Shown here piece after piece: positions 15,848 to 19,100 of a stretch of DNA of 64,000 nt. Below the pieces are notes generated by a model. It was not told where the DNA came from and did not search any database. It saw only the letters and a program-made list of their open reading frames with translations. The stretch is from Hirudinaria manillensis (taxonomy: Eukaryota; Annelida; Clitellata; Hirudinida; Hirudinidae): assembly GCA_034509925.1 (NCBI GenBank), contig CM067529.1:11963501-12027500 (forward strand). The letters run 5' to 3'. How positions within the stretch are numbered: the stretch's first letter is position 1; the number at the start of each line of letters is the position of its first letter. The position numbers were made by a program, and so were the translations under genes.

Positions 15848-16130
15848 ATGCCTAACATATATTCCTATCGGTTTTATAATCTCATCCTAATTGTTACCAT
15901 AATAATTTGTTATGTTGAAAACAGAGAAGAAACGGAGATTATTAATTACAAGGGAATTTATATGGAAATTAAAAAGAACTTAGAAGGAAATATGACTGTT
16001 CAAACGTCTACTGAAGGAAATTTAAGTTTTATTGGAGGTGTTAGTACGGCTAGGGTGGTATTAGTCTTCCAAAGATTGTCTAATATAAGTTTGATCAGGC
16101 TCAAACAACAGTCAGCTTCGGGTCAAACAG
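15848..16130 (+). CDS. Paralog 2 exon 1: signal/anchor segment and N-terminal region
   Basis: The acceptor ttttttgacag lies two bases before the ATG, so the mRNA 5' end is spliced on, either from a leader exon or by trans-splicing. It begins [10 protein letters not shown], then a hydrophobic stretch ([12 protein letters not shown]) consistent with a signal peptide. The rest resembles no family I recognise and has N-glycosylation sequons (NMT, NIS). Ends phase 1 at ACAG|gtaata. It differs from paralog 3 exon 1 at 38 bases, 30 residues of about 95. Confidence 0.75.
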
Positions 16131-19100
16131 GTAATATTTTCTGGTTTGATAAAACGACCGCCAGTTATCCGTATAAAATTTCATGAGTGCATTATAAAAA
16201 TTAAATATGGATGTCGCCATACATGACTAAATATTATTTGAAATTTAAAACGTGTTAATACTGATACAATTTTAATTTGATCAAAGACATAAATCCGTTT
16301 ACGGTGGAGGGAGAATGTTCAGATCAATATAAATTTGATAAGAATCTAACAGATAGATATACACACCTTGGAAATGGAACTATTGAACTTAGACCTAATC
16401 TTTACTGTAACCGGATAATAATTGAATCAAATACTCTTACTAGCTTAACTGTCTATGGATACGGTAAGCTAATTGTACAAAACTGAAAAAAAAATCTATA
16501 CAATTTTGCAACAATTTTCCTGTAGAATCGTACGTTGAAAATTATCTGGGATGTTTCCAAAATGATCCGACCTCATCAGAGGAACGTATCATCCAGAATA
16601 GATTGCGATGCAAAGACGAATGCGGTGGTTACAAATACTTTGGCTTATCCTGGACATTTAACAAAGTTTGTCGCATTTAACATGATGATGTGTTTTTTTA
16701 ATGTTTACGTTTTAGAATATACAGATTTTTGTCAGGGTGAGCTTTAGATCTAAGATAATTTGTTTTTCGTTAAACAAATAAACTCTAACAAATTTAGAGA
16801 AGCGCCAAAAAGCAAGAGAAACTCATTGAATTTATAACGGAGTAAAAGTGAACCTACCTATAAATAAAAGACACAAATATTAAACCCCTGACCCTTCCTA
16901 TCTTATTTTGAGTGAAAACGACATTTTTACATATTCGTTGGAATATTGTAATTATTTTACAATTAGTTTTGGTTCATTATAATCATGTCAAGTGGAAAAT
17001 TACTTTCTAAAATTCTTAAAAATTTATTTTCATTTTTAGCAAATTACTTGTAAATGTTTAAACAATTTGGAAATGTATCGTTCGACGGAGTTACGTAAAT
17101 GCTTGAATGAGTGTACAGAAATTTGGAAGCATTGTGGAAGTTTCTACGAGGTCGCGATATTTGCAATAGGTAATATTTTATTTCTATTATTATTATTATT
17201 ATTATTATTATTATTATTATTTGTTGTGGATAATGCAATAATATTGTAAGAAGAAGCCATGATGTGCAAGGTCAGCGCAGAGACCTTGGTGGCAACTACC
17301 CCTGTCCACTGCGATACGAGGAAGGAAGAGATTAATGTTGATCCTGTTAAGACAGCTTCAGGATGAACCCGTGAAGACAGTCGATGCTGATCCAGTCGTA
17401 GATGAAGATAGGTCAGCATTTGGGGATTCTCGAGACTTCCCTAGCAAGAAGTCCGGAACCCATCGCCTGAGGAGGAAGAGGAAGCAGAGGGTTGTTGCAG
17501 TAGTCAGGAACGTGGCAACGTAGATGGCAGTGTAAGTGGATGAACAGAGTTTCAAGACCAAGGGGATCTTACTCACGAATAAGGCGAATCAATCAGTAAA
17601 CATGGGGGCAAACGAAGGAGGTTCCATTCATGCACTCCATCTCACTCCATTTCTCCAAGTGATGATAGAGGATCAAGGACAAGGAGTTACAATAGACGAT
17701 ACAGGAGTAGATCGAAGTCAAGAAGCCATGACAGATGCAGATCCGACAAATATGATGATAGGAGGAGAAACAGTAGAACACTCCCAAGAAGACGCAATGC
17801 CAAAACCAGCAATAAACCACACGCCATCGTGGTCCACCTAAGCGTCTCGTGAGCGACGCAAGCAAGCAAGCAATTATATATGAGGGGGAGGTGTTGTGGA
17901 TAATGTAATAATATTGTAAGAATTTATTATTACTTAAAATTTATTACGATAATATTCAGAGTCTTTGGGAGACTAGTATGATAACATGATTTCATTAATA
18001 AAACAGCTTAGTATCTCCAATTCACAAAGTAGTCTTTAATTATATAGCAAGTAATTAAAAATACAATATTATTATTATTACTATACACATTTTCCTTCTT
18101 CTTCTCTATTTCCCTGCCGGTGAGGAATGAATGACGAGCACTACCAGTGCTCTCAGCGATTCACCCAAGAACTCTCCGAAGAATGTGGGCAGGGCCCACC
18201 AAGGAGGTCTTCTGAATCTCCGAAGTCTTTGGTCGTCCTGGTATTAACTCTACACACTTTGTAAAGTCTTTTCTTAGCGTTCCGAGCGCTCCTACTTTAG
18301 ATTAACGTTCCACATCTGGTTAATTTCAATTTCCTTATATTTGCTATTTTTTCAGCTTCTTTAAGCGCGATGTTTTTATCATCCGGGACTGAAACAACGC
18401 ATTAGCATGCACGACTTGGATCTACTGTCACGGATGACAATGTCAGGTATATTGGCCACTATTTTCCTGCCCGTGGTAATTGCGTAGTCCCATAAGGTGG
18501 TGCAATCCTTTGTGTATGTCACACTTTGGGGTGTGTGTTTGTACCATTTCCTTGGAACTTCACATCCTAGCTCACGGCATACAACCCATTGGATGTAACT
18601 GGCCACCTTATTATGTCGGTGCAAATATTCAGTTGTTCTACTAACACAGTACAACATCATGTGGCTTATCGTTTCTTGAGCCTTGCCACAGATTCTGCAA
18701 TTGTCATCTGTCTTCTGCTTCAATATCATATTATTATTATTATTATTTTTCAAAATTTTTATTCAGCCCGGATTACGTCCGTAAAACCAATACGCACATC
18801 GGAGAACCTCATCGCTGTCTTTAGGGTCCTCAGACGGGCCCGGGAAAACCCATGGACTATATTAACAGTAGCCTAAATATAATATTATAAATTAGACAAA
18901 GTACAGTCAAATAAATGTTCTTCTCGGCCTTCTTCTTTTCCTTGTTTTCCAATCGTTTGCTCTGAATGTTCTCCATATTCTATGGGTTTCTGCCAGAGTC
19001 TTTATTGATGTCCACGTCAGGAATCTCTTAGACATGCCCAGCTTCTTCCACGAGGTCCAAGTTTCCATGGCGATTGCTCCTTTCCAATTGATAATACATT

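Follow-up and report, generated by a model that had tools for sequence, protein, structure and literature searches.

The window, a stretch of 64,000 nucleotides at 11.96–12.03 Mb of contig C4 of the leech Hirudinaria manillensis, lies across three receptor gene copies arranged head-to-tail, which we call c0, c1 and c2. We focus on head exons 1–4 of c1, the middle copy (Table 1). Of c0, the window includes just the tail (5878–12959), the head being further upstream, so that c0 is not seen whole within it; c2 begins at 43483, with a tail that runs past the window end. Our exon models comprise 19 exons for c0, 21 for c1 and 18 for c2, with no stop codon and with AG and GT at every modelled splice boundary. 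Each copy has the same domain order: a putative signal peptide and an N-terminal domain (exons 1–2), a WSC-like domain (exons 3 and 4), EGF-like exons, a transmembrane segment and a short tail. Counting exons 5 and 6, there are 13 cysteine-rich or EGF-like exons in c0, 15 in c1 and 12 in c2, and for the c1 exons at 32109–32243 and 32727–32849 no counterparts were found in the other copies. In the models these exons are followed by one transmembrane exon and then by a short cytoplasmic exon, which is the last exon modelled (the 3′ end of the gene may lie further). A short stretch in intron 3 was considered as a micro-exon and dropped, because its phase did not fit. In all three copies a T-rich tract ending in ACAG stands directly before CA-ATG, which would be compatible with a 5′ UTR intron or with trans-splicing upstream of the ATG. 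In the 500 bases compared upstream of the ATG, c1 and c2 differ at 2 sites.

Table 1. Modelled exons and reference introns of the three receptor copies, with positions counted from the first base of the window.
Feature	Positions	Strand	Remarks
c0 tail EGF exons	5878–6006, 6481–6600, 8077–8199, 8499–8621, 9950–10078, 10223–10357, 10752–10883	+	
c0 transmembrane exon	11289–11492	+	
c0 cytoplasmic exon	12894–12959	+	
c1 exon 1	15848–16130	+	starts with ATG; by inspection a putative signal peptide; hypervariable half of the N-terminal domain
c1 intron 1	16131–16286	+	conserved reference, 5/156 against c2
c1 exon 2	16287–16463	+	remainder of N-terminal domain, mildly variable, replacement-only
c1 exon 3	16526–16665	+	first half of WSC-like domain, strongest selection signal
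c1 intron 3	16666–17039	+	conserved reference
c1 exon 4	17040–17169	+	second half of WSC-like domain, 13/130 against c2
c1 exon 5	21949–22059	+	cysteine-rich, EGF-like; c1 odd at 14/111, c0 = c2
c1 exon 6	23298–23429	+	EGF-like, 0–1 differences among copies
c1 exon 7	23661–23783	+	calcium-binding EGF, 0–2 differences among copies
c1 exon 8	25286–25408	+	EGF; c0 odd (12/117 and in-frame indels), c1 = c2
c1 exon 9	25779–25901	+	EGF, variable, replacement-only
c1 exon 10	26476–26598	+	EGF; c2 odd, with both silent and replacement differences (19/123) that suggest an exon swap
c1, three more EGF exons	31649–31777, 32109–32243, 32727–32849	+	modelled
c1 EGF exons	34131–34250, 35707–35829	+	modelled
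c1 membrane-proximal EGF exons	36126–36248, 37542–37670, 37815–37949, 38346–38477	+	0–2 differences among copies
c1 transmembrane exon	38883–39086	+	0–4 differences among copies
c1 short cytoplasmic exon	40489–40554	+	last exon modelled
c2 exon 1	43483–43765	+	
c2 exon 2	43922–44098	+	
c2 exon 3	44162–44301	+	
c2 exon 4	50137–50266	+	intron 3 before it carries an insertion
c2 exons 5–10	55275–55385, 56624–56755, 56987–57109, 58607–58729, 59104–59226, 59801–59923	+	

The insertion in intron 3 of c2 (44490–49955) has short direct repeats near both ends and holds three long open frames on the minus strand, which we take to be of the Gypsy gag-pol type. Further open frames, some long and some broken, lie between and inside the receptor genes (1628–4891, 27477–30554 and 60740–63262 on the plus strand, 19750–20508 and 52937–53836 on the minus strand); presumably they encode the reverse transcriptase of a non-LTR element. 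About 87.8–92.6 kb from the window start there is a fourth, more diverged gene with, by inspection, a similar exon order and a terminal hydrophobic stretch. Pfam named no domain in the N-terminal part of this gene (~88–92 kb). On another contig, at C9:3024946–3029286, we came across a COX1-like stretch with a score equal to that of mitochondrial COX1, either a nuclear copy or a misjoin. Mitochondrial COX1 itself, on contig C23, has 97% identity with Poecilobdella javanica and 96% with H. manillensis. It reads best with AGA/AGG as serine, and a reading of the window as the s-Themis self-sterility locus of Ciona was rejected on the strength of this code and of the leech matches.

Our results show that the heads of the three receptors differ far more in their exons than in the introns between them. 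For exon 1, the earlier note had described this for the second and third paralogs (c1 and c2), and the description is borne out: 38 of 283 bases differ (15848–16130 against 43483–43765) and 30 of 95 codons carry a residue change, with 5 differences in the 156 bases of intron 1. The replacements it reported in exons 3 and 4, with the cysteines and the motif YFGL kept, are also there. Between c1 and c2, 17 of 47 residues are changed in exon 3 (16 of 46 codons if the last codon is placed elsewhere) and 10 of 43 codons in exon 4 carry a residue change; c0, c1 and c2 share all eight WSC-type cysteines and YFGL without change. Exon 2 is far less divergent (10 of 177 bases), and its 10 changed codons comprise 10 replacements and no silent change.

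The same holds when exons 1, 3 and 4 are pooled and compared by Fisher test with introns 1–3 and 151 bases at the start of intron 4. Between c1 and c2, 73 of 553 exon bases differ against 15 of 740 intron bases (p=2e-15); the corresponding numbers are 107/535 against 16/702 for c0–c1 (p=6e-26) and 112/535 against 14/705 for c0–c2 (p=2e-29). Across pairs the exons are thus 6.5- to 10.5-fold more divergent than the introns, far from the equal divergence that would have spoken against faster evolution of the exons. Indel lengths are multiples of 3 in exons 1–10 and mostly are not in introns 1–3.

Almost all of the divergence in the head changes the protein. In exons 1–4, replacement codons outnumber silent ones by 63 to 2 between c1 and c2, by 77 to 7 between c0 and c1 and by 88 to 6 between c0 and c2, and the fourfold sites changed are 0/59, 4/53 and 4/50, respectively. 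The Nei–Gojobori ω for these exons is 1.70 (c0–c1), 2.38 (c0–c2) and 2.94 (c1–c2), hence above 1 in all three pairs. By exon and pair it exceeds 1 in 11 of 12 cases, the exception being exon 4 between c0 and c1 (0.61). A Fisher test of replacement versus silent changes in exons 1, 3 and 4 gives p=0.054 for c0–c1, 0.002 for c0–c2 and 0.005 for c1–c2. We also fitted a maximum likelihood (ML) codon model to the three copies, excluding EGF exon 8, which is not of equal length in the copies, and every codon with a gap in at least one copy; in this custom-written model, which rests on three sequences and was not checked against a standard package, ω for exons 1–4 is 3.33 (likelihood ratio test, p=3e-6). 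Exon by exon, the three-copy estimate is highest in exon 3 (9.9, p=6e-5) and lower in exon 1 (2.6, p=0.013); exon 4 alone gives a nonsignificant 1.5 (p=0.40). Diversifying selection on the receptor head, as the earlier note proposed, is well supported.

The proposal calls for some refinement. The signal is significant for exons 1 and 3 and not for exon 4 taken alone; moreover, restriction to exons is also found in EGF exons 5, 9 and 10, where ω is about 1.1. The four membrane-proximal EGF exons, the transmembrane exon and the cytoplasmic exon show 0–4 differences each between copies (ω of 0.48, p=0.43 against 1, on few changes), and exons 6 and 7 are almost invariant. Exon 5 of c1, by comparison with its flanks, differs at 14/111 versus 6/299 bases, exon 8 of c0 at 12/117 versus 7/295 and exon 10 of c2 at 19/123 versus 6/294 (c1–c2). 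In the same way, the exon that starts at 8077 in c0 (35707–35829 in c1) differs at 12/123 bases between c1 and c2 versus 0/299 in the flanks, less sharply in the pairs with c0 (9/123 and 14/123 versus 13/299 each). The ML ω for exons 5, 9 and 10 together is 1.10 (p=0.82), and in exon 10 of c2 silent divergence exceeds flank divergence (p=0.003 and 9e-5), reaching ~6/23 versus 7/298 between c0 and c2. Hence, exchange or old exon variants probably explain part of the exon restriction, and the variable EGF exons seem better explained in this way than by selection alone.

Exchange can also be seen outside the coding sequence. Along 331 informative non-coding sites, the copy that differs from the other two stays the same over blocks of sites and switches 136 times, fewer than in any of 5000 permutations. 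Hence, exchange between copies acts on the array. In exons 1, 3 and 4 of c0, fourfold divergence is 4/32 and 4/29, above that of the introns (p=0.009 and 0.004), and no such excess is found between c1 and c2. The head exons of c0 look older than its introns. Hence, the introns probably underestimate the age of the c0 exons, and there is no clean clock for c0. The suggestion that introns can serve as the neutral reference is therefore fair for c1–c2 and does not extend to c0.

These observations lead to the strongest rival explanation: exon-limited gene conversion from diverged family members, with homology ending at the splice sites, could have made the exon restriction, with selection secondary. 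The silent divergence of c2 exon 10, the raised fourfold divergence in the c0 head and the significant non-coding mosaic would all be expected, as would exons 5 and 8 being identical in different copy pairs. We nevertheless think that this explanation is unlikely, for the following reasons. First, our searches of the assembly gave no close donor. Exons 1–2 as protein (E up to 0.001) and exons 3–4 as protein (E up to 0.01) had no match in the genome beyond the three genes of the trio, and exon 10 of c2 as DNA (E up to 1) matched at three places only. Such searches overlook diverged relatives (the gene near 88 kb has a local match at E=5e-4, yet is absent from the exon 3–4 protein search), but a close donor in the searched sequence would show. 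Second, 0 of 59 fourfold sites are changed between c1 and c2 in exons 1–4, which is unlike the outcome expected from a diverged donor.

One could also argue that the tandem copies are partly alleles misplaced by the assembler, in which case their differences would be allelic variation at a balanced locus. All copies are indeed known from a single assembly, but the numbers of EGF-type exons differ (13, 15 and 12), there is the insertion in addition, and the assembly is described as built with PacBio HiFi and Hi-C (PMC10671345). The replacement bias holds in either case, and we give the argument little credence. Relaxed constraint on decaying duplicates is less probable still. We found no point in its support, and it does not sit well with ω above 1 in exons 1–4, with invariant cysteines, with exclusively in-frame indels in exons 1–10 or with the absence of stops from 19, 21 and 18 exons. 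Germline hypermutation aimed at the head exons, to which the 15 of 65 changed codons with more than one change (exons 1–4, c1–c2) might point, is the least credible of all, as it would strike silent sites too and not leave 2 silent against 63 replacement codons.

Exons 3 and 4 fit the pattern of the WSC domain (PF01822), which we take to be eight cysteines with a CxC and with CG near the end, in comparison with WSC paralogs. Three Pfam queries at E up to 1 did not call PF01822 in the trio, and a spliced relative from a second array scores 1e-9 on it. Aligned by hhalign with four WSC domains of the same genome, the trio domain reaches a probability of 91% and a pairwise E of 1e-6. It is on this profile match and the cysteine pattern that we call the domain WSC-like. 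The calcium-binding EGF domain (PF07645) is called in c1 with 52.3 bits against a cut-off of 27. For exons 1–2 we considered an F5/8C (galactose-binding) domain and rejected it, since hhalign gives a probability of 0.3% against the F5/8C domain of a relative on contig C11. In this relative (C11:2664297–2667425), a single stretch contains the F5/8C domain and, after it, two WSC exons, along with several EGF exons. For the receptor family as a whole, glycan binding is a reasonable inference.

Among 574 candidates, a protein search with c1 residues 1–300 gave no match up to E=0.1; it depends on shared exact words, so that distant relatives may escape. With 488 residues there were 1063 matches, the best 120 of them mostly EGF proteins. 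An exon-2-like motif, sought by regular expression in 30 loci, had no match, and an initial pattern scan was uninformative, with 25 forward and 25 reverse matches versus 11 and 21 in a reversed-pattern control.

Some 0.85 Mb away (C4:12.84–12.88 Mb), a second WSC array shows the pattern again, in the first-half WSC exon only. We read four stretches there, setting exon limits by eye, and compared three of them; L069, the fourth, fails to align across the first-half exon and is omitted. In the three pairs of three copies (L067, L068 and L070), the first-half exon has 10, 15 and 10 replacement codons and no silent one; 11, 18 and 13 of its 132 bases differ, versus 9, 7 and 6 of 335 intron bases (p=0.01, 4e-6 and 2e-4). 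The second-half exon hardly varies (4, 5 and 1 of 135).

In the other clusters compared, the pattern is largely missing. A search for WSC domains, in which 150 of 333 candidates were scored, yielded at least 96 exon matches; all 96 listed ones lie outside the trio. From other clusters we compared seven locus pairs, with 13 comparisons of WSC second-half and EGF exons (two of them alternative ends of one exon, and some, e.g., L031/L034, with poorly aligned exon and flanks) and nine of WSC first-half exons, from six of the seven pairs. In most of the WSC exons compared, exon divergence is about that of the intron, with no excess. A mild excess appears in L031/L034, at 14/108 versus 19/200 (10 replacement codons, 1 silent) and 7/138 versus 7/200 (6 and 0), and in L033/L035, at 21/133 versus 27/296. 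One exon of L013/L014 (11/124) exceeds one flank (4/150) and not the other (25/147).

With the alternatives weighed, we consider it quite probable that the three genes form a tandem trio of single-pass surface receptors in which recent duplication and exchange keep most of the gene alike and selection diversifies the head. Introns, flanks, membrane-proximal EGF exons and transmembrane exons hardly differ between the copies, and the membrane-distal head differs mostly by replacements. Recent duplication and exchange would hold the non-head parts alike. The head would be the ligand-binding surface, and selection would favor differing heads, driven either by a changing ligand or by the benefit of having distinct specificities. 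Candidate ligands would be surface molecules of pathogens first, and markers of self or mates next. Short exchange tracts may in addition have reshuffled the distal EGF exons between the copies, or with lost or unsampled variants. From sequence, we would regard the trio as a putative surface recognition receptor, more likely directed at pathogens than at self or mates.

A bolder and rather doubtful extension is that leeches have, in these two arrays on one chromosome, a polymorphic system for recognition, in effect a histocompatibility-like or immune-receptor locus of annelids. The WSC-like heads would be under selection and the EGF modules would be swapped exon by exon between copies, multiplying specificities. 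A search of open-access papers on leeches, the WSC domain, annelid allorecognition and F-type lectins gave no account of this receptor family. A study that reports sequencing 30 H. manillensis individuals could provide population data (PMC12109416). If our reading is right, the locus supplies two arrays, with the exons concerned identified, for testing which forces shape receptor diversity in annelids.

Among genes with conserved introns, those of snake venom PLA2 are the classic example. The small serum protein genes of the habu snake are like the trio in being tandem duplicates with KA/KS above 1 (1.739 and 1.536 are reported) and a low intron rate (KN of 0.0649 and 0.0488; PMC6609765), although they encode small serum proteins and the trio encodes predicted membrane receptors with EGF repeats. 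The sperm bindin of oysters, an F-type lectin, is likewise described as a recognition protein with positive selection, recombination and a variable number of repeats (PMC5712786). Bindin is, however, an acrosomal lectin of sperm, and a profile comparison of exons 1–2 of the trio with the F5/8C domain in the C11 relative gave no match. Ciona s-Themis shares the hypervariable N-terminal region, and s-Themis B and B2 are reported as near-identical elsewhere (PMC7018956). According to the same source, s-Themis proteins are polycystin-1-like with REJ, GPS and LH2 domains (and a channel in the B type), and the partner v-Themis lies in intron 1; the trio, in contrast, has EGF repeats and one transmembrane exon. 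Judged from the exons modelled after the WSC-like domain and before the single transmembrane exon, which are cysteine-rich or EGF-like, an arrangement of REJ, GPS and LH2 with multiple transmembrane segments appears to be absent. No antisense v-Themis-like gene lies in the intron after exon 1, which measures 156 bases. SpTransformer genes of sea urchins resemble the trio as clustered and diversified recognition genes of an invertebrate, but are described as two-exon genes, and the differences of the A2 genes as mostly intronic, the reverse of the trio (PMC8634487). Combining ω above 1 with exon divergence above intron divergence, the trio belongs with positively selected recognition genes with conserved introns, its own role in recognition being putative.
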